Below, one piece after another: positions 5,291 through 35,820 of a DNA stretch of 64,000 nt. Below the pieces are notes generated by a model. The model was not told the DNA's origin, ran no database searches, and saw only the letters and a program-made list of their open reading frames with translations. The stretch is from Stella humosa. Its GTDB lineage: Bacteria > Pseudomonadota > Alphaproteobacteria > ATCC43930 > Allostellaceae. How positions within the stretch are numbered: position 1 is the first letter of the stretch; every line of letters begins with the position of its first letter. A program made the translations under genes and the position numbers. The stretch spans positions 2,864,001-2,928,000 of the forward strand of contig NZ_AP019700.1 in assembly GCF_006738645.1 (NCBI RefSeq), written 5' to 3'.

Positions 5291-6163
5291 ATGTCCCAGC
5301 CCTTGCGCCCGACGACAGACTTGGCCAACCGGATCGCCGGGGCCTATCCGTCGCTCAGCGCCGGGCACCGCAAGGCGGCCGACTTCGTGCTGCAGAACCC
5401 GCTCGACACCGCGACCATGACGATCGAGGGTTTCGGCGCGCAGAGCGGCACCTCGACCGCCACGGTAACCCGCTTCGTGCGGGTGCTGGGCTTTGCCGGT
5501 TATGGCGAGTTCCGCGCCGCCCTGTCCGCCGCACTCAAGCTGGCGATGGCCCCGGTCGACGGCTTCGCCGATGCCCGTGCCGCCGCCGGCTCGACCTTCG
5601 CCACTCTGGCCGGCGCGCTGCGGGACCAGGCGGCCAACTTCGATGAGGCGATCTCCCAGCTCGACGAGGCCGTCGTGTTGCGCGCGGTCGCCACGCTGCT
5701 GGGCGCCCGCCGCATCTTCCTGCTGGGATCGGGCGCCAGCCACCACGTCGCCTCCTTCCTGGAGGACGGCTTCGCGCTCTACCTGGATGCGGACGTGATC
5801 TTCGCCGCCTCGCGCGGCGGGCCGGAGCGGGCGATCCGCCACATGCTGTCGGCCGGCCCCGAGGACCTCGTGGTCGCGGTCTCGATCCCGCGCTACTCCC
5901 GCACCACGGTCGACCTCTGCCATTTCGCGCGCAAGCGCGGCGTGCCGGTGCTCGCACTCACCGACGCCGCCACCTCGCCGCTCGCCCGCATCGCCGACAT
6001 GACGCTCTACGCGCCCGCCCGCAACCGCCTGCTACCCAACTCGCCGACGGCGGCCTTCGCGCTGGCCGACGGGCTGGTCACCACGATCGCCAAGGAACGG
6101 CCCGACGCGGTCGAGACCCTGAAGGGGCTGAGCGAAGGGCTATTGTGGACGTTCCATCACTGA
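5291..6163 (+). CDS. RpiR/MurR-family transcriptional regulator
   Basis: Phosphosugar-responsive DNA-binding regulator, 290 residues. Residues about 10-85 form the HTH_6 domain (HRKAADFVLQNP, then the recognition region GTSTATVTRFVRVLGFAGYGEFR). Residues about 125-270 form the SIS domain (RIFLLGSGASHHVASFL, DLVVAVSIPRYSRTTVDLC, VPVLALTDAATSPLARIAD). The ATG at 5291 was preferred over 5255 because GAGG lies nine bases upstream. It is divergent from the peptide-type importer and most likely controls it. SIS domains usually sense sugar phosphates, so the true substrate of the importer may be sugar- or amino-sugar-linked. Confidence 0.92.
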   Translation: MSQPLRPTTDLANRIAGAYPSLSAGHRKAADFVLQNPLDTATMTIEGFGAQSGTSTATVTRFVRVLGFAGYGEFRAALSAALKLAMAPVDGFADARAAAGSTFATLAGALRDQAANFDEAISQLDEAVVLRAVATLLGARRIFLLGSGASHHVASFLEDGFALYLDADVIFAASRGGPERAIRHMLSAGPEDLVVAVSIPRYSRTTVDLCHFARKRGVPVLALTDAATSPLARIADMTLYAPARNRLLPNSPTAAFALADGLVTTIAKERPDAVETLKGLSEGLLWTFHH

Positions 6164-6181
6164 GAGGCACCGAGCGACCCC

Positions 6182-8530
6182 TCACCCCTCCAGCAGGCCG
6201 CGCGCAACGGCATCGACGATGGCATCGGCGTCGATGCCGTGCACGCGGTAGAGGTCCTGGATGTCGCCCGACTGCCCGAAGCTGTCGACGCCCAGCGGCA
6301 CCACGCGGTGGCCGTCGACGGCACCCAGCCAGGACAGGGTCGCCGGGTGGCCGTCCACCACCGTCACGATGACGGCATCGGCCGCCAGTGGTGCCAGCAA
6401 ACGCGCGATCCGGCTGTCCCCGCCTGACGTGGCGGCCGTCCGCCAGCCGGCATGCAGGATGTCGGCCGAGGTAACCGCCAGCAGGCCCGCACCCGGCACG
6501 TCCTCCAGGATCGCCGCATGGGCGGCGATCGCCTCGGGTGCCACCGCGCCCACATAGACGATGGCGACCGGGGCACCCTTGGCCGGCGGTGCCAGCCAGT
6601 AGCCGCCCGACAGCACGTCGGCGCGACGGCGATCCTGGTCGGCAGCGGGGGCCGGCTGCTCGAGCTGGCGGGTGGACAGGCGCAGATAGACCGATCCCCC
6701 CTCCTCGGCCTGCATGTGACGGAAGCCCCAGGCCATGACGATCGCCAGCTCGTCGACGAAAGCCGGCTCGAAGGCCGTCAGGCCCGCCTGGCCGATGCCG
6801 ATCAGGGGGGTGCTGATCGACTGGTGCGCGCCGCCTTCCGGCGCCAGCGTCAGGCCGGACGGCGTCGCCACCAGCATGAAGCGGGCATCCTGGTAGCAGG
6901 CATAGTTGAGCGCATCGAGGCCGCGCATGATGAAGGGATCGTAGAGCGTGCCGATCGGCAGCAGCCGGCGGCCATAGAGGCTGTGCGTCAGGCCGAACGC
7001 AGCCAGCGTCAGGAACAGGTTGTGCTCGGCGATGCCGAGTTCGACATGCTGGCCGGACGGCCCCATCGCCCAGCGCTGGGCCGACACCACCTTCTCGTCC
7101 CGGAAGATGTCGTGGCGCTCGCTGCGGTCGAAGATGCCGCGGCGGTTGACCCAGCCGCCGAGGTTGGTCGACACGGTGACGTCGGGCGAGGTCGTGACGA
7201 TGCGCTCGGCCAGCTGGCTTTCCCCGGCCGCCAGCTCCGACAGCATGCGCCCGAAGCCTTCCTGGGTGGACATGCGCTGGGCGGTCGGCACCGGCAGCGC
7301 ATCCGGCACCGGCACGGACTGGTCCTCGAACCGCCGGAAGCCCTCGCGGGCGAACGGCACCCGCGCCAGGAATTCCTTCAGCACCGGCGCCGGCAGGTCG
7401 AGGCCGGCGAAGTGATCCCATTCCTGGCCGTCGGCGATGCGGTTGGCCTTCTTGAAGCCCGCCATCTGGTCGCGGTTCATCAGGCCGGAATGATTGTCCT
7501 TGTGGCCGGCGAAGGGCAGGCCGAAGCCCTTCACCGTATAGGCGATGAAGCAGGTCGGCAGGTCGTCGGTGACGGCCTCGAACGCCTCCAGCACGGCCTC
7601 GATATCGTGGCCGGCCAGGTTCGTCATGAGGACGCCCAGCGCATCGTCGTCCAACTCGTCGAGCAGCGCGCGGATGCCCGGCAGGTGGCCGATGTCGCGC
7701 TCCAGCCGCGGCCGCCAGGCCTCGCCGCCCTTGAAGACCAGCGCCGAATAGAGCTGGTTCGGGCAGGCGTCGATCCAGTCGCGGAGGGCAGCGCCGTCCG
7801 GGCGCTTGAAGGCGGCCTCCAGCTTCTTGCCGTACTTCAGGGTGACGACGCGCCAGCCCATCGACTGGAAGATGCCGTCGATGCGCATGAAAAGGCGGTC
7901 GGAAACAACGCTATCCAGGCTTTGCCTGTTGTAGTCGATGATCCACCAGAGGTTCCGGACATCATGCTTCCAGCCCTCCAGCATCGCCTCGAAGACGTTG
8001 CCTTCGTCCAGTTCGGCGTCGCCCACCACCGCCACCATGCGGCCGGCCGGGCGGTGGGTCGGCACCATCTCCTTCAGCCGCAGATAGTCCTGGGCGATCG
8101 AGGCGAACGTCGTCATCGCCACGCCGAGGCCGACCGAGCCGGTCGAGAAATCGACGTCGTCGGCATCCTTGGTGCGCGAGGGATAGGACTGCGCCCCGCC
8201 CAGCGCGCGGAACCGCTCCAGCTTGCCCTGCTCCTGCCGGCCCAGCAGGTACTGGATGGCGTGGTAGATCGGGCTGGCGTGCGGCTTGACGGCGATGCGG
8301 TCCTGCGGCCGGAGCACCGACAAATAAAGAGCGGTCAGGATCGTGGCGCAGGATGCGCTCGACGCCTGGTGGCCGCCCACCTTGAGGCCGTCGCGGCTGT
8401 CGCGCTCGTGGTTGGCCTGGTGGATCATCCAGCTCGAAAGCCAGAGGATCTTGCGCTCCAGTTCGCGCAGGATGGTAATTCGGTCGCCGGAGGCCGGCTC
8501 GGGAAAGACCTCGATCGGGAGCGCGCTCAT
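6182..8530 (-). CDS. Thiamine-diphosphate-dependent transketolase / homodimeric pyruvate dehydrogenase E1-like enzyme
   Basis: A 782-residue protein with the layout of homodimeric E1 (AceE-like). An N-terminal ThDP-binding half carries the GDAELDEGNVFEA motif, with WIIDYNRQSLD completing the GDG-N type cofactor site. A central pyrimidine-binding domain follows (SPDVTVSTNLGGW, VELGIAEHNLFLTLAAFG), then a C-terminal transketolase domain. It is about 100 residues shorter than E. coli AceE, and no E2 or E3 gene lies nearby, so decarboxylating 2-oxoacid dehydrogenase activity is not assured. The start at 8530 has a Shine-Dalgarno-like AGGATC upstream. It lies 38 bases downstream of malonyl-CoA decarboxylase and is probably co-transcribed with it. 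The substrate is unassigned. Confidence 0.82.
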   Translation of the reverse strand: MSALPIEVFPEPASGDRITILRELERKILWLSSWMIHQANHERDSRDGLKVGGHQASSASCATILTALYLSVLRPQDRIAVKPHASPIYHAIQYLLGRQEQGKLERFRALGGAQSYPSRTKDADDVDFSTGSVGLGVAMTTFASIAQDYLRLKEMVPTHRPAGRMVAVVGDAELDEGNVFEAMLEGWKHDVRNLWWIIDYNRQSLDSVVSDRLFMRIDGIFQSMGWRVVTLKYGKKLEAAFKRPDGAALRDWIDACPNQLYSALVFKGGEAWRPRLERDIGHLPGIRALLDELDDDALGVLMTNLAGHDIEAVLEAFEAVTDDLPTCFIAYTVKGFGLPFAGHKDNHSGLMNRDQMAGFKKANRIADGQEWDHFAGLDLPAPVLKEFLARVPFAREGFRRFEDQSVPVPDALPVPTAQRMSTQEGFGRMLSELAAGESQLAERIVTTSPDVTVSTNLGGWVNRRGIFDRSERHDIFRDEKVVSAQRWAMGPSGQHVELGIAEHNLFLTLAAFGLTHSLYGRRLLPIGTLYDPFIMRGLDALNYACYQDARFMLVATPSGLTLAPEGGAHQSISTPLIGIGQAGLTAFEPAFVDELAIVMAWGFRHMQAEEGGSVYLRLSTRQLEQPAPAADQDRRRADVLSGGYWLAPPAKGAPVAIVYVGAVAPEAIAAHAAILEDVPGAGLLAVTSADILHAGWRTAATSGGDSRIARLLAPLAADAVIVTVVDGHPATLSWLGAVDGHRVVPLGVDSFGQSGDIQDLYRVHGIDADAIVDAVARGLLEG

Positions 8531-10281: not shown

Positions 10282-11997
10282 ATGGCGACGATAGGAACCG
10301 AGGGCCCGGATCTTCTGACCGGCACGGAAGGCGTGGACACGATCCTGGGTCTGGGCGGCAACGACACGGCGGCCGGCCTGGGTGGCGACGACTTCATCGA
10401 CCTCGGCCCCGGTGCCGACAGCGCCGATGCCGGCGGCGGCGCCGACTTCATGATGGGCATGGCCGGCAACGACACGTTGATCGGCGGGGCCGGCGCGGAC
10501 GCCCTGTTCGGCGGATCCAACGTCGACCAGGAGAACACGGGCAACGACCTGCTGCTGGGCGGTACCAGCGACGACCTGATCCTGGGCGGCGACGGCAACG
10601 ACGTCATCCAGGGCGAGGACGGCAATGACAGCCTGAACGGCAATACCGGCGTCGATGTCGTCTATGGCGGCCCGGGCGTCGACTTCGTGCGCGGCGGCCA
10701 GGGCAACGACAGCGTGTTCGGCGGGACCGGCAGCGACTGGCACGTCAACGGCAATATCGGCGACGACTACGTCGCCGGCGGCGAGGGCAGCGATTCGGTG
10801 TATGGCGGCCAGGGCAGCGACACGCTGCTGGGCGATTCCGGCAACGACACGATGAGCGGCGACCTCGGCGACGACTTCCTGCAGGGCGGCGACGGCGATG
10901 ATTCGCTGGATGGCGCGACCGGCGACGACACGGTGCTGGGCGGGGCCGGGACGGATTATGCGGCCGGCGGCGACGGCGAGGACAGCGTGCTGGGCGGCGA
11001 CGGCCAGGATTTCGCGATGGGGGGTCTCGGGTCCGACACGCTCGACGGTGGCACCGGCGACGACTTCATGTTCGGCGGGACTTTCGGTTTCGTTAGCGAT
11101 GTGGACGGGCCCCCAGATGGGGACAACCTGATCTATGGCGGCGACGGGTCGGATACGATGGCCGGCGACATGGCGAACGACCGGCTTCTGGGCGGGGCCG
11201 GAATCGATGTGATGCTGGGCATCGGCGGCGACGACTCGATGGATGGCGGTGCCGACGGAGACTTCCTGTCGGGCGACATGCTCACTGGCATCTTGGGCTT
11301 CGACCTGACCGAGGCGGATCTCAACATGGCCTACCAGCAGGCCATCGAGTTCAACCTCAACGGCAACGACACCCTGTCCGGCGGCGAGGGCAACGACACC
11401 ATCTTCGGTCATCTGGGCTCGGACAGCGTGTCCGGCGGCAACGGCGACGACACGATCTCGGCCGACCGCCTGCTCCTGGACGACGAGTACGAGGAGTTTC
11501 CGGCCTTCCTCTCCCTGCTGGGATATGGCGGCGGCAGCGATGTCGTGCGCGGCGGCAATGGCAACGACCTGATCTATGGCGACGAGGGCGACGATACGGT
11601 GATGGGCGATGGCGGCAACGACCGCCTCTATGGCGGTTCCGGCGGCGATCTGCTGGTTGGGGGTGCGGGCAACGACTACCTCCATTCCGGCTCCGGCAGC
11701 GACACCATGGCCTTCGGCAGCGGCAGCGGGGAGGATTCCGTCATCGGCTTCGATGCCGCGACCGACAAGCTGTCGATCGCGTCCGGCGTGAACGGCGGCA
11801 ACCTGACCACGGCCCAGGCCGTCCTCAACGCGTCCTTCGTCATCGTCGGCCGCGGGCTGATCATCGACCTGGGCGGCGGCAATGCCATTATTCTGCCCGG
11901 GATCACCAAGGCGGATATCTCGGCTGCCAACATCCAGATCAGCGCGGCCGAGGGCCTGTCGGCGCCGGCGCCAGCCGACGATCCCTACTGGTACTGA
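10282..11997 (+). CDS. RTX-type calcium-binding repeat protein
   Basis: A 571-residue acidic, Gly/Asp-rich protein made almost wholly of nonapeptide repeats of the GGxGxDxLx type, from about residue 5 to 500 (for example GGAGADALFGG, GGDGNDVIQGE, GGTGDDFMFGG). These fold into calcium-loaded beta-rolls. The last 70 residues (SGSGEDSVIGFDAATDKLSI onward) resemble the C-terminal region that RTX proteins use for type I secretion. There is no Sec signal peptide and no enzymatic domain. The start at 10282 has a GAGGAA box; the longer frame upstream is unsupported. No type I secretion genes lie in the window. Likely secreted or surface-attached; function unknown. Confidence 0.88.
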   Translation: MATIGTEGPDLLTGTEGVDTILGLGGNDTAAGLGGDDFIDLGPGADSADAGGGADFMMGMAGNDTLIGGAGADALFGGSNVDQENTGNDLLLGGTSDDLILGGDGNDVIQGEDGNDSLNGNTGVDVVYGGPGVDFVRGGQGNDSVFGGTGSDWHVNGNIGDDYVAGGEGSDSVYGGQGSDTLLGDSGNDTMSGDLGDDFLQGGDGDDSLDGATGDDTVLGGAGTDYAAGGDGEDSVLGGDGQDFAMGGLGSDTLDGGTGDDFMFGGTFGFVSDVDGPPDGDNLIYGGDGSDTMAGDMANDRLLGGAGIDVMLGIGGDDSMDGGADGDFLSGDMLTGILGFDLTEADLNMAYQQAIEFNLNGNDTLSGGEGNDTIFGHLGSDSVSGGNGDDTISADRLLLDDEYEEFPAFLSLLGYGGGSDVVRGGNGNDLIYGDEGDDTVMGDGGNDRLYGGSGGDLLVGGAGNDYLHSGSGSDTMAFGSGSGEDSVIGFDAATDKLSIASGVNGGNLTTAQAVLNASFVIVGRGLIIDLGGGNAIILPGITKADISAANIQISAAEGLSAPAPADDPYWY

Positions 11998-23089: not shown

Positions 23090-23761
23090 TTACGCGCCGG
23101 CATGCGATGCGCCCTCGATCATCGGCGAGGGCGTCGCCAGCATCGACGGCCGGGCCGCCATCCGGCGATACCAGCGGTCGAGCGCGGCATGCGCGGCCAG
23201 CATGGACGCCCCTTCCGGCGCCATGCGGAAGCAGGCGAACATCGGCGCGGCGTGCAGGTCGGCCAGCGTCGGCCCCAGTCCTTCGCCTGCCAGCCAGTCG
23301 CCACCGCCAAGGAACCCTTCCAGCACCCGGCAGCAGCGCGCCGCCTGCGGCAAGGCCGCCGCGATGCGTCCTTCGTCCACCGGCTCGCCGCGCACGGGCT
23401 TGCGCACCCGCTCCACGAACACGTCCCACACCAGCGTGCGATAGGCATAGGCGTCGAGCAACCCCACGATCTGCGCCATGCGCGCCCGCGCGCCGGGGGC
23501 GGCCGGCTGCAACGGCGGCCCGGCGAAGCCCTCGTCGACGTAGCGCGCGATTGCCGCCGTCTCGAACAGGTCGAGCGCGCCGTGCCGCAGGGCCGGGATG
23601 CGGTCGAACGGGTGCAGGCCACGATATTCGGCCGGTACCGAGGGCGGGTCGAAGATGTCGACCGGCTCGAAGCGATGGGCGACACCCTTCTCGGCCAGGG
23701 CCAGGCGGGCGATGCGGGTGTAGACGCTGTAGATGGCGCCGAAGAGGACGGGGGCGGTCAT
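23090..23761 (-). CDS. Glutathione S-transferase family protein
   Basis: A 223-residue cytosolic GST. The N-terminal thioredoxin-like domain contains IYSVYTRIARLALAEKGV, the cis-Pro segment FDRIPALRHG and the glutathione-contact LFETAAIARYVDE. The C-terminal helical domain includes GLGPTLADLHAAPMF, the N-capping-box region of GSTs. The start at 23761 removes an unsupported 13-residue extension. Substrate class cannot be told from sequence. Its presence implies glutathione use, relevant to the bacillithiol-like locus at 30354-33347. Confidence 0.9.
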   Translation of the reverse strand: MTAPVLFGAIYSVYTRIARLALAEKGVAHRFEPVDIFDPPSVPAEYRGLHPFDRIPALRHGALDLFETAAIARYVDEGFAGPPLQPAAPGARARMAQIVGLLDAYAYRTLVWDVFVERVRKPVRGEPVDEGRIAAALPQAARCCRVLEGFLGGGDWLAGEGLGPTLADLHAAPMFACFRMAPEGASMLAAHAALDRWYRRMAARPSMLATPSPMIEGASHAGA

Positions 23762-29628: not shown

Positions 29629-30222
29629 CTAACGCGGGCGGGCGACTGGCCTCGGTCGCTGGGCCGGCTTCGCGGGCACGGGCTTGCGGGTTGCCGCCTT
29701 CACCGGTGCGACCTTGGCGGGCGCCGCCTTCGCCGGCTTGATCTTGACGGGTGCGGCCTTCGCCGGCGTGGTCTTGACAGGTCCCGCCTTTGGCGGCCGA
29801 GCGGGCGCCTTGACCGCGGCCGTCGGCTTGCGGCCGGGCACCGGGGCCGCGGCCTGCTTGCGCGCCCGCGCCTGCCCGGCATTCGACCGCGTGCGGTCGG
29901 CCCAGGGGCCCAGCGGCGGCTTGGGCATGCCGGCCGAGTCCAGTTCCTGCTGGTCCGGGTCCGGCCGGCAAGGGTCGAACAGGCCGGCACTGGCTGCTGG
30001 CTTGCACCCGCCGGCCTGCCCCTGCGGCACCAGGCGGTCGCCCGGCATGCTGACGCCGGCATTGGCCACGGGCAGTTCGTGCCGATAGAAGGTGGCGCGA
30101 ACGCGCCCGATATCGTTCAGGGTCGTAGCCGGGTCGAGGCAGGCCGCCAGCGGCAGCGCCAGGAACAGGGCAACGAACGGGGCGCCGGCAAAACGGCGGC
30201 GGGCGGCGTCTGGTCGATTCAT
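29629..30222 (-). CDS. Predicted lipoprotein with a Lys/Pro/Ala repeat tail
   Basis: A 197-residue protein. The signal ends in a lipobox (LALPLAAC), so Cys at about residue 28 would be lipidated. A short folded part follows (LNDIGRVRATFYRHELPV, with the CKP...DPCRPDPDQQELDSAGMP segment). From about residue 105 the tail is histone-H1-like: repeats of PAKAAPVK, PAKVAPVK and KPVPAKP, strongly basic. Such a tail could span or bind the peptidoglycan or anionic polymers. No family recognised. Codon bias matches neighbours. Confidence 0.7.
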   Translation of the reverse strand: MNRPDAARRRFAGAPFVALFLALPLAACLDPATTLNDIGRVRATFYRHELPVANAGVSMPGDRLVPQGQAGGCKPAASAGLFDPCRPDPDQQELDSAGMPKPPLGPWADRTRSNAGQARARKQAAAPVPGRKPTAAVKAPARPPKAGPVKTTPAKAAPVKIKPAKAAPAKVAPVKAATRKPVPAKPAQRPRPVARPR

Positions 30223-30353
30223 GGGCGGGATACTCGGCCGGTTCGCCCGGCAGGCCAACCCCCGACCATGCACTTGACCGCCCGGCATCCCGGATGGTCC
30301 CTTCGGCCAAGGTCATCGTCCACCAGGAGATCGCACCAGCCTTGTCCGACGCG

Positions 30354-31484
30354 ATGCCGACATGCGGAACGCCGCCGGCCATCGCCATCCTCTGCCATGG
30401 CGGCGGGGGCGGCAGCACGCATGCGGCGATGAACCTGGCGGCCGCGCTCGACCGGCGCGGCCGGCGCGTCGTCCTGGCGACGCTGGGCCGTCCGCTCTGG
30501 CCGGTGCCGGCCGGGCTGGACCACATCGTGATCGGGCGGGGCGGAGGGGGCGGCACAGGCCGCCTCGACACCGGGTGGGACGAAGCGGCATTGGACGGGA
30601 TGGCCCGCGCGGTCGCCCGGCTGTGCCGGCGCACCGCCATCGACATCCTGCACTATCACTATGCCCTGCCGTTCGCGGCGGTTGCCGCGCGGGTGCAGGG
30701 GTGGCTCGGCGCCGACGCACCGGCCCTGGTGGCGACCCTGCATGGCAGCGACGTGACGGCCATCGCCCGCAACCCCGGCCTAGGCAGGCCGCTGGCCGCC
30801 GCCGCCGCGGTCTCGACCGTTTCCCTGCCCTACGCCCGGATGCTGGCAGCCGCCACCGGCATGCCGGAACCCGCCGTCGTGCCCAACTTCCTGCCGGCGG
30901 CCCCGGCAGCCCGGCCGCGACCGCCGGTCCGGCGGCTGGTACCGACGATCATCCATGTGTCCAGCTTCCGCCCGGTCAAGGACACCCGCGCCGTCGCCCG
31001 CATCTTCCTGGCGATCCGCCGGCAGGTCCGCTGCCGGCTGGTTCTGGTCGGCGACGGCCCGGATCGCCGCGGCATGCGGCAGTTGCTGCGCGCCCGCGCC
31101 GGCGATGTCTCCCTGTCCGGCTTCCGCCGCGACGTGGCGGCGCTGCTGAGGGCGGCCGACCTGATGCTGCTCGCCAGCCGGGCCGAGAGCTTCGGCCTGG
31201 CGGCGCTGGAGGCGATGGCGGCTGGCGTGCCGGTCGTCGCCCCGCGCGTCGGTGGCCTGCCGGCGGTCGTCGGCGACGGGGTCGGCGGTCGCCTCTTCCA
31301 TCCCGGCCGCCATGCGGACGCCACCGCCCGGGCGGTGGCGCTGCTGCTGGCGCCGATCCACCGCCGCCGCATGGCCGACCGCGCCCGCCGCCGCGCGGCA
31401 ACGTTTTCCGAGGAGCGCGCCATCGCGGGCTACGACCGGCTCTATGCGCTGGCACTGGCGCGGACCCCGGCAGTCGCCGGGTGA
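30354..31484 (+). CDS. bshA: GT4 glycosyltransferase resembling BshA (N-acetylglucosaminyl malate synthase)
   Basis: About 376 residues, the BshA length. The pattern follows BshA closely: N-terminal glycine-rich GGGGGSTHAAMNLAAAL, the BshA-type DILHYHYALPFA, TLHGSDVTAIA, STVSLPYARML, VVPNFLP, IIHVSSFRPVKD, LVLVGDGPD and the GT4 retaining motif ESFGLAALEAMAAGVPVVAPRVGGLPAV (in overlapping parts). BshA transfers GlcNAc to L-malate, the first step of bacillithiol synthesis. The start is uncertain: ATG 30294 and TTG 30342 are also in frame; 30354 gives the usual N-terminal length. Its stop overlaps the start of a BshC-like gene and a BshB homologue follows, which supports the call. Confidence 0.75.
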   Translation: MPTCGTPPAIAILCHGGGGGSTHAAMNLAAALDRRGRRVVLATLGRPLWPVPAGLDHIVIGRGGGGGTGRLDTGWDEAALDGMARAVARLCRRTAIDILHYHYALPFAAVAARVQGWLGADAPALVATLHGSDVTAIARNPGLGRPLAAAAAVSTVSLPYARMLAAATGMPEPAVVPNFLPAAPAARPRPPVRRLVPTIIHVSSFRPVKDTRAVARIFLAIRRQVRCRLVLVGDGPDRRGMRQLLRARAGDVSLSGFRRDVAALLRAADLMLLASRAESFGLAALEAMAAGVPVVAPRVGGLPAVVGDGVGGRLFHPGRHADATARAVALLLAPIHRRRMADRARRRAATFSEERAIAGYDRLYALALARTPAVAG

Positions 31485-32605
31485 AGGACCTGCGTGCACT
31501 ACTGGGGGAAGCCGATGGCCGCGCCAGGCTGGCGGCAGGCGGGGTATTCACCGACCCGGCCGCATTCCTGGATGCCCTGGCACCACCGGCTGTCCTCCCC
31601 GGCAGCGACCGGCGCCCGATCCACACCCACCAGCAGCCCGGCCCCGATATCCGGCGGTCGGTCCTGGCCAAGCTCTCCACGCTGGAAGACCTGCGGCGGC
31701 GCCAGCCGGAGGTGGTCGATACGGCGTTCGTCCTCATCGACACCGACCGGGCCGCATCCAGCAAGGTGGCGACGCGCATCGCCTGGGATGGGCCGGACGG
31801 CCGCCGCCATATGCTGAAGGTGACGCCGCCCGGCACCGAGCCGCTGGAGTTCCGCCACCTCGGCCTCGACCCAGCCCAGCTCGATCGGGTGGCCGACCGG
31901 CTGGCCGCCTACCTGCGGCAGATCCCGGGCGACCGGGCAGCCGCTACTTCCCGGATGGCACGACTGCGGCCGCTGCTGGCGCCCGCGCGCGCGCTGACCC
32001 TGGCCGAGTACGCAACCTCGCTCAGCCAGTTCCTGCTGGCGGCGCGGCTTGGCCAGGCGCCGAGGCCGGTCATGGTGTCCACCCTGGCCGAGTCTGGGCA
32101 GTTGACGCAGGCCCTGGCGACGATGCTGGCGGGGCTGGAGGGATTCGTCGCCGCGTTCAACCGGGCGGTGCACGACCTGACCGCCGCCGGCATCGACCCG
32201 GCGGTCGGCGCCCTGGCGGCCGACTGGCTGCCCCTCTTCTATTCCTGCCCGGTCGATGGCGAGCGCATGCGGCTGCGGCGGCAACGGAGCGGCCGGGATG
32301 TGGTGGCGGCCGGCCGCAGCCGGGCCGGCCGCGCCTACGCCTTTCCCCTGGGTGCCACCGGGTGCGACCTGGGCGCCCTGCTGGCCGCCGGCCGCTGGAG
32401 CCCGGACGTGACCCTGCCGGTCCTGCTGAACGACCGCTTCAGCGGCATGGTCGCCGGGCGCAGCTCGGCGCTCTACGGGCTGGTCCTGGCCACCGCGATG
32501 CGGACGGCGCTGGGCATCCGGCCGATCCCGATGCTGGTGCCGACGACCCTGGCCGAGCCCCCTTCGGGGCCGGACGGGCTGCTGCAAAGCTGGCTGACGG
32601 GGTAG
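31481..32605 (+). CDS. Divergent, shortened BshC-like protein (putative cysteine-adding enzyme)
   Basis: 374 residues, GTG start overlapping the bshA stop (GTGA). Weak but ordered similarity to BshC is visible. HQQPG followed by VLAKLSTLEDL stands where BshC has GQQxG...GP...K. FVLIDTDR stands where BshC has the VFW..GEDHD strand. Then LFYSCPVDGERMRL with SGRDVV, and SPDVTLPVLLNDRF-AGRSSALYGL-PIPMLVP stand where BshC has LF...ER-L...GR, then SPNV.LRP..Q......GPGE..Y......MP...PR. It lacks the C-terminal coiled coil (family about 540 residues) and the EDHD histidine is not kept. Inferred role: last step of a bacillithiol-like thiol, possibly altered. Confidence 0.5.
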   Translation: MKDLRALLGEADGRARLAAGGVFTDPAAFLDALAPPAVLPGSDRRPIHTHQQPGPDIRRSVLAKLSTLEDLRRRQPEVVDTAFVLIDTDRAASSKVATRIAWDGPDGRRHMLKVTPPGTEPLEFRHLGLDPAQLDRVADRLAAYLRQIPGDRAAATSRMARLRPLLAPARALTLAEYATSLSQFLLAARLGQAPRPVMVSTLAESGQLTQALATMLAGLEGFVAAFNRAVHDLTAAGIDPAVGALAADWLPLFYSCPVDGERMRLRRQRSGRDVVAAGRSRAGRAYAFPLGATGCDLGALLAAGRWSPDVTLPVLLNDRFSGMVAGRSSALYGLVLATAMRTALGIRPIPMLVPTTLAEPPSGPDGLLQSWLTG

Positions 32606-32615
32606 TGTGGCACCC

Positions 32616-33347
32616 ATGACCCCGGTCGACATCCTGGCCATCTCCACCCATCCCGACGACGTCGAACTGGCTTGTGGCGGCACCTTGATCCTAGCGGTGC
32701 GCCAGGGCCTGCGGGTCGGCCTCGCCGACCTTTCGGCCGGCGAAGCAGCGACCCGCGGCACGCCCGCGCTGCGCCGGGAGGAAGCGGCCGAGGCCGCGCG
32801 CCGGCTGGGTGTCGCCTGGCGCTGCTGCCTCGACCTGCCCGACGGCCGCATTGGCGACACACCCGAGCAGGTGGAACCCGTGATCGCGCTGCTGCGGCAG
32901 GCGCGCCCGCGCATTCTGCTGCTGCCCTATCCCCAGGACCGCCATCCCGACCATGCCGCGGCCGCCCGGCTGGTCGAGCGCGCAGCCTTCCTCGCCCGGC
33001 TGAAAGGCCATGGCGCGGGGGCGCCGCACGCCGTCAACCGCCTGCTGCACTATTGCGGCCACCACCCCTTCCAGCCCGCGATCGTCATCGACGTCAGCAC
33101 CGTGTGGGAGGAACGGATGGCAGCCCTGCTGGCCCATGCCAGCCAGTTCGAATCCGGCACCGGTTCGCCCACCGCGCTCAGCGACGGCAGCTTCCTGCGC
33201 TTCGTTGAGGCACGCGCGGTGTGCCACGGCGCGATGATCGGGGTGGCCCACGGCGAAGGCTTCGCCATGAGCGGGCCGGTCGGCCTTAGCGGCATCGACC
33301 TGCTGCTGCCGCCGGCCGGTCCGCGCGCCTACCGGAACTTCGCCTGA
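32616..33347 (+). CDS. bshB1: BshB1-like N-acetylglucosaminyl-malate deacetylase (LmbE/PIG-L family)
   Basis: 243 residues, as for BshB1. The zinc motif HPDDVELACGGTL is at the N-terminus and DRHPDHAAAARLV mid-protein. BshB1-specific patterns are present: VGLADLSAGEAATRGTPALRREEA in parts, LPDGRIGDT, LLPYPQDRHPDH, IVIDVSTVWEERMAALLAHASQF and the end GVAHGEGFAM. Removes acetate from GlcNAc-malate to give GlcN-malate. The ATG at 32616 lies 10 bases after the previous stop; a GTG at 32607 is an alternative start. Converges with the ATP-grasp gene with one base between stops. Confidence 0.82.
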   Translation: MTPVDILAISTHPDDVELACGGTLILAVRQGLRVGLADLSAGEAATRGTPALRREEAAEAARRLGVAWRCCLDLPDGRIGDTPEQVEPVIALLRQARPRILLLPYPQDRHPDHAAAARLVERAAFLARLKGHGAGAPHAVNRLLHYCGHHPFQPAIVIDVSTVWEERMAALLAHASQFESGTGSPTALSDGSFLRFVEARAVCHGAMIGVAHGEGFAMSGPVGLSGIDLLLPPAGPRAYRNFA

Positions 33348-34683: not shown

Positions 34684-35820
34684 ATGCAAATCGACGCTCG
34701 CCGCACGAACGACACGCTGACCCTGGCATTGGCCGGCCGGCTCGACATCACCACCGTGCCCCTGCTGGAGCGCGAGCTGGGGCTGGACGGCGTCCGGCAT
34801 CTCGTCCTCGACTTCGACGCCTGCCCATACATCTCCAGCGCTGGGCTGCGGGAACTGCTGCGCGCGCAGAAGCGGCTGAGTACGGCCGGCGGCACGATGC
34901 TGCTGACCAACGTGTCGCGCGAGGTCCAGGACGTGCTGGACATGACCGGCTTCTCCACGATCATCCCGACCCGGCGCAAGGCGCGGGAGATCTCGCTCGA
35001 CGGCCGCGAGTTCCTGTCGGCCGGCGTCTGCGGCGAGTGCTATCGCCTCGACCAAGAGACCATCGTCAAGCTCTACAACGAAGGCGTCGAGCTCCACATC
35101 GCCGAGAAGGAGAAGGAGTTCGCCAAGGCGGCCTTCCTGCTCGGCATCCCGACCGCCATCTCCTACGACGTGGTCGCCTGCGGCAGCCGCTCGGGCGTCG
35201 TCTACGAGATGCTGGACGCCACGCTGTTCAGCGCCGTCATTCGCAACGACCTGGAAAACCTCGAGCACCATGCCCAGACGCTGGCCGAGATCACCCGCAC
35301 GGTGCACGCCACCCCTGCCGACCGGGATGTGTTCCCGGACATCAAGAAGAACTTCCGCGGCTACATCGACCAGATGGACTTCTTCCTGTCGACCGAGGAG
35401 ATCGCCTTCCTGCAGGCCAAGCTGGAAGAGATCCCGGACGCCGACACGCTGGTCCATTTCGACCTGCACACGAGCAACATCATGATCCGCGGCGGCGAGC
35501 CCGTGATCATCGACATGGGCGACCTGTCGCGCGGCCACTACATGTTCGACATGGGGCTGCTGGCCACCATCTACGGCTACCCGGAGACGGGCATCTCCGA
35601 ACTGGCGACCAAAATCCCGTCGGCCGACGGCGCCCGGCTGCTGGAGCATTTCCTGAAGCACTACTTCGCCGACAAGCCGGACGCGGACTACCAGTATTTC
35701 CTGCGCAACAAGGCCTTCCTGGCGTCGCTCCGGCTCATCTACACCGTCACTTTCCTGCCCAAGCTGCGCGAACAGCTTGCCACGACGATCAAGGACCTGC
35801 TGCTGCCCCAGATGCGCTGA
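34684..35820 (+). CDS. STAS domain fused to an aminoglycoside-phosphotransferase-like kinase
   Basis: 378 residues. Residues 1-100 are an anti-sigma-antagonist-type STAS domain (LALAGRLDITTVPLLE, VLDFDACPYISSAGLRELL) with the phosphorylatable Ser at 51/52. Residues about 110-340 form an APH-fold kinase: a short N-lobe with IVKLYNEG and EKEKEFAKAAFLLGIPTA, then catalytic HFDLHTSNIMI (D260, N265) and the metal-binding IIDMGDLSRG. The arrangement resembles the TIGR02172 group of APH-like proteins. It suggests a small-molecule or protein kinase steered by STAS interactions. It is convergent with RpiR, with one base between the stops. Confidence 0.85.
   Translation: MQIDARRTNDTLTLALAGRLDITTVPLLERELGLDGVRHLVLDFDACPYISSAGLRELLRAQKRLSTAGGTMLLTNVSREVQDVLDMTGFSTIIPTRRKAREISLDGREFLSAGVCGECYRLDQETIVKLYNEGVELHIAEKEKEFAKAAFLLGIPTAISYDVVACGSRSGVVYEMLDATLFSAVIRNDLENLEHHAQTLAEITRTVHATPADRDVFPDIKKNFRGYIDQMDFFLSTEEIAFLQAKLEEIPDADTLVHFDLHTSNIMIRGGEPVIIDMGDLSRGHYMFDMGLLATIYGYPETGISELATKIPSADGARLLEHFLKHYFADKPDADYQYFLRNKAFLASLRLIYTVTFLPKLREQLATTIKDLLLPQMR

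Follow-up and report, generated by a model that had tools for sequence, protein, structure and literature searches.

Bacillithiol (398 Da) and glutathione are usually regarded as alternatives. Biosynthesis of bacillithiol by BshA, BshB1 and BshC is described from Bacillota, Deinococcota and Bacteroidota, and in the N-methyl-bacillithiol pathway of Chlorobiota and Bacteroidota the genes bshA-C are joined by nmbA, which encodes a methyltransferase. Mycothiol biosynthesis (MshA-D) follows a comparable route, with a GT4 glycosyltransferase, a deacetylase and a cysteine ligase resembling an aminoacyl-tRNA synthetase, and then a further step. Published surveys of the distribution of bacillithiol used BLAST orthology to canonical BshC (PMC6282198, PMC12719100). 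In vitro reconstitution of BshC's cysteine step was still lacking when a 2015 review appeared (PMC4360819).

The DNA analysed here, called the window below, is a chromosomal stretch of 64,000 nucleotides from Stella humosa ATCC 43930, a soil bacterium with star-shaped cells. At positions 30354-33347 it carries a BshA-like GT4 gene, a middle gene and a BshB1 gene, which abut one another as an earlier note on this DNA had described: the middle gene overlaps the stop of the GT4 gene (31484) by 4 bases, and is separated from BshB1 by a gap of 1 base. The note took the unit to end there, and so overlooked a fourth gene, for an ATP-grasp ligase, which is convergent with BshB1 (Table 1). In two of the other loci discussed below (L045 and L046) this gene is co-directional and stands fourth in the row. 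The base composition of the cassette, said to match that of its surroundings, does so only roughly: the cassette has about 74% GC and the window 69.8% on average, and only 2 of 123 3-kb tiles are equally GC-rich. A glutathione S-transferase (GST) gene had been placed 6 kb away, and is indeed found, about 6.6 kb upstream of the cassette. In L046, a glutathione S-transferase gene (11043-11648, minus strand) abuts the cassette at the ATP-grasp end. Two other genes in the window are listed for completeness. One encodes an unusual fusion of a STAS and a kinase domain beside the cassette, and has no match in the other cassette loci; the other encodes a protein without a family match.

Table 1. Genes of the cassette and other genes noted in the S. 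humosa window.
Feature	Position	Strand	Start codon	Assignment and basis
GST gene	23090..23758	-		Glutathione S-transferase
219-aa protein	29629..30288	-		C-terminal half rich in Ala, Lys and Pro
BshA-like GT4 glycosyltransferase, 376 aa	30354..31484	+	ATG	Predicted UDP-GlcNAc:L-malate (or similar hydroxy acid) transferase; TIGR03999, PDB matches, motifs
BshC-like amino-acid ligase (putative), 374 aa	31481..32605	+	GTG	AF2 model, Foldseek match to 4wbd, kept in 7 loci
BshB1 deacetylase, 246 aa	32607..33347	+	GTG	Predicted GlcNAc-malate deacetylase; TIGR04001 over cutoff, PDB matches
ATP-grasp amide-bond ligase (predicted), 369 aa	33349..34458	-		Linkage in 6 of 7 loci, AF2/Foldseek, weak match to the TIGR00768 RimK family
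STAS-kinase fusion protein	34684..35820	+		STAS (anti-sigma factor antagonist) domain at the N-terminus, joined to a kinase domain of APH/TIGR02172-like type

The profile search that the earlier note had proposed gave a graded answer, with BshB1 above its family cutoff, BshA the best family of the GT4 but below cutoff, and BshC without a match. The best NCBIfam model for the S. humosa GT4 is BshA (TIGR03999) at 206.9 bits, the next family reaching 102; the score nevertheless lies under the equivalog cutoff of 273.7, and the description of the protein as BshA-like holds in that sense. BshA is the top family by a wide margin for all seven cassette GT4s; the members scored one by one gave 187.8 to 270.3 bits, all below the cutoff. 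The closest solved structures are those of bacillithiol BshA (2jjm, 3mbo and 5d00), and the motifs HYAxP, TLHGSD and ESFG/EX7E line up with BshA.

The deacetylase is clearer. It scores 251.7 bits with TIGR04001, against a curated equivalog cutoff of 182.5, and the cutoff is exceeded in every cassette tested, including L041, L043, L045 and L046. Its best PDB matches are 1uan, 6p2t (annotated as GlcNAc-malate deacetylase 1) and 2ixd, and the HPDD and RHPDH motifs, from which it had originally been called BshB1-like, are invariant across the seven loci. Mycothiol-conjugate amidase had been named, beside lipopolysaccharide GT4, as an example of a clade that would speak against a bacillithiol-type set. 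The MshA equivalog gives 75 bits with the GT4 (cutoff 462.5) and the MshB equivalog 35 bits with the deacetylase (cutoff 224), and the mycothiol and MshB/Mca readings were therefore rejected on family scores. The weaker BshB1-like genes of two other genomes, G046 (134 bits) and G394 (116 bits), stand without GT4 or BshC-like neighbours and were set aside.

The protein encoded by the middle gene is divergent. It has no Pfam or NCBIfam family match, a sequence search of the PDB returned nothing, and plain HMMER gave no significant similarity to BshC. The BshC family model PF10079 matches nothing in the S. humosa genome and none of the seven middle-gene homologues; nor does it find a canonical BshC among 399 sampled Pseudomonadota, while the controls from B. 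subtilis, Thermus and Deinobacterium do score. The similarity to BshC, proposed earlier from ordered motifs, is thus absent at the level of the family HMM and rests on structure and, weakly, on profile-profile comparison. An AlphaFold2 (AF2) model was obtained with pLDDT 86.6 and pTM 0.86, the alignment comprising 7 homologues and the predictions resting on 6-7 sequences. Foldseek against 350,542 PDB chains returned B. subtilis BshC (4wbd) as the top match, with E 1.1e-11 and TMq 0.65, followed by class I LysRS and then MshC. BshC, class I LysRS and MshC are all amino-acid-activating enzymes. With hhalign, the middle-protein profile is collinear with BshC over 203 columns at a score of 26.6. 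Shuffling the columns 30 times gave no more than 20.2 and unrelated pairs no more than 20.5, and a reversed control also fell below 26.6.

A joint alignment with BshC, for which the B. subtilis reference sequence was verified against 4wbd, is likewise collinear, pairing IDTDRAAS with GEDHD, LPLF..DGER with NLF..GER, and LP..F.G.VAGRSSALY with the segment ending GPGEIAY. HQQ of the middle protein pairs with GGQQ of BshC by eye, the alignment program having offset both blocks. Many invariant residues are retained among the seven homologues. The BshC motifs EDHD, GPGEIAY and GGQQAG are however altered to IDTDRAAS, GRSSALY and HQQP respectively, and in the alignment the chain stops where the C-terminal coiled-coil region of BshC starts, so that this region is missing. 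On these grounds the middle protein is a BshC homologue at the level of the fold, its active site having been remodelled; it constitutes a new divergent BshC-like subfamily. Since the family models miss the ligase and the canonical motifs differ, it may use an amino acid other than cysteine.

The ATP-grasp gene is linked to the cassette in six of the seven loci. Its product belongs to the ATP-grasp superfamily by both fold and metal-site motif: the AF2 model (pLDDT 83.8) matches DdlA, PsnB, RimK and LysX in Foldseek with E of about 1e-11, and VVWEAN is invariant in the linked proteins. By sequence it has a weak match to the RimK family (TIGR00768) and none in Pfam over cutoff. The subfamily scores above 584 bits in cassette genomes only, the next best being 95 bits; among 385 alphaproteobacterial genomes a high-scoring copy (at least 591 bits) is found in the three cassette carriers only, the next again reaching 95. 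In the seventh locus, L043, the gene was not found anywhere in the genome, a metagenome-assembled genome (MAG) that may be incomplete. The cassette there stands head-to-head with a TupA-like gene (5819-6805, minus strand) from a different ATP-grasp family (PF14305), which is possibly a non-orthologous replacement or merely a polysaccharide neighbour.

The order GT4, BshC-like, BshB1 recurs in seven loci at 32-77% pairwise identity, so the arrangement is not due to chance. The full unit with the ATP-grasp gene is present in six of them, in distant alphaproteobacteria, and its genes diverge in step, the pairwise identities of each following those of the others (r 0.91-0.99). Its occurrence is sparse. 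Of 43 genomes from the order, 4 have the middle gene, and these are all Stella. At high score it was found in 3 of 385 genomes of the class and, in a sample of 379 genomes of the phylum, in S. humosa only. A scan of 84,980 genomes gave at least six loci, a count that is too low for relatives because exact short motifs were demanded. The middle protein had no counterpart in a search of plasmids, and two profile matches to it, in G331 and G585, were dismissed as noise, as they reached 19-20 bits and spanned about 100 columns. Within the genus, the carriers are three closed Stella genomes, including Stella vacuolata and Stella sp. ATCC 35155, and one MAG, on which ground contamination was rejected, as the earlier note had also concluded. 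Its further argument, that placement among ordinary genes speaks against import, is not supported. The flanks of the loci compared are unrelated to one another, and together with the patchy spread in distant alphaproteobacteria this suggests a functional unit that is mobile and transferred as a whole, or has been lost repeatedly, rather than an ancestral alphaproteobacterial trait.

What has been observed directly is to which families and folds the cassette genes belong, that they are linked and that they diverge jointly. From here we infer substrates, order of steps, cysteine as the amino acid, the ATP-grasp step and the identity of the product. We hypothesise, and on balance think it probable, that the four genes make a glucosaminyl-malate conjugate related to bacillithiol, in which the BshC-like ligase adds an amino acid and the ATP-grasp enzyme one further amide bond. 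The GT4 would join UDP-GlcNAc to malate and BshB1 would take off the acetyl group. The compact ligase would then use ATP to activate an amino acid, of which cysteine is the most likely, and couple it to the free amine, after which the ATP-grasp enzyme would add one more amide bond. The product is likely to be a bacillithiol derivative kept beside glutathione. S. humosa has glutathione synthetase (GshB, 419 bits), and for this reason a second thiol or GlcN-malate compound, as originally suggested, is the best reading, the product itself being predicted. The more specific version, a new alphaproteobacterial low-molecular-weight thiol in the form of an aminoacylated bacillithiol coexisting with glutathione and made by the compact BshC subfamily and the ATP-grasp enzyme, is put forward tentatively, as a possibility that we would not yet favour. 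To call the set "complete" and "bacillithiol-type" was an overstatement: the ligase is a new divergent subfamily, the ATP-grasp gene had been overlooked, and the search for redox partners that depend on bacillithiol found none. The S. humosa genome contains no bacilliredoxin BrxA/B (PF06491) and no YpdA equivalog (TIGR04018; best 58 bits against 339.9).

These absences, the altered motifs and blank family models of the ligase, the GT4 scores below cutoff and the lack of the ATP-grasp gene in L043 all count against a bacillithiol derivative. The altered motifs and the missing redox partners would suit a non-thiol specialised metabolite, in which the BshC-like ligase adds an amino acid other than cysteine to a GlcN-(hydroxy acid) scaffold and the ATP-grasp enzyme a second. 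The rare and patchy distribution, typical for accessory metabolites, and the presence of a glutathione pathway gene point the same way. We nevertheless consider this unlikely, given that the GT4 and BshB1 are specifically of the bacillithiol type, the closest fold is that of BshC, and the cassette travels without a transporter, regulator or further tailoring genes.

The order of the last steps could also be read differently. Enzymes of the RimK/LysX/Ddl kind make amide bonds, and the lack of an in vitro demonstration of BshC activity in the 2015 review (PMC4360819) leaves room for the ATP-grasp enzyme to be the real cysteine ligase, the BshC-like protein being accessory or degenerate and the product ordinary bacillithiol made by a different last step. 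This appears improbable, because it is the BshC-like gene that is present in all seven loci and the ATP-grasp gene that is absent from one whole genome, and because the BshC-like protein keeps many of its invariant residues. We give still less weight to modification of a surface glycan instead of a small soluble metabolite. It is prompted by L043, where other glycosyltransferases, methyltransferases and the TupA-like gene flank the cassette, but in the other loci the flanks are unrelated, BshB1 is far over its cutoff, and the cassette has neither a lipid carrier gene nor export genes linked to it.

Should the product of the cassette prove to be a thiol, the range of bacillithiol-type chemistry would come to include alphaproteobacteria equipped with glutathione synthetase as well. 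The BshC-like enzyme, being small and coupled genetically to its partners, offers a useful new handle on the cysteine step of BshC, and with three cultured and fully sequenced Stella strains the cassette is directly testable. Because the published surveys were keyed to canonical BshC, they would miss the Stella ligase.

The locus resembles bacillithiol biosynthesis in its BshA-like GT4, its BshB1 above cutoff and its ligase of BshC fold. It differs in that the genes form one tight unit with a linked ATP-grasp gene, in a host with glutathione synthetase, and the ligase differs from canonical BshC in escaping PF10079, in being about 165 aa shorter and in lacking the coiled-coil region. With mycothiol biosynthesis it shares the general succession of enzymes, but the GT4 scores 75 bits with MshA against 207 with BshA, the deacetylase is BshB1 and not MshB, and the fold of the ligase is closer to BshC than to MshC. 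The linked gene has the fold and the conserved metal-site motif of the RimK/LysX/Ddl ligases, from which it is set apart as a separate subfamily. In combining a bacillithiol core with a single tailoring enzyme the cassette is like the N-methyl-bacillithiol pathway, except that the candidate tailoring enzyme in Stella is an ATP-grasp ligase and not a methyltransferase.
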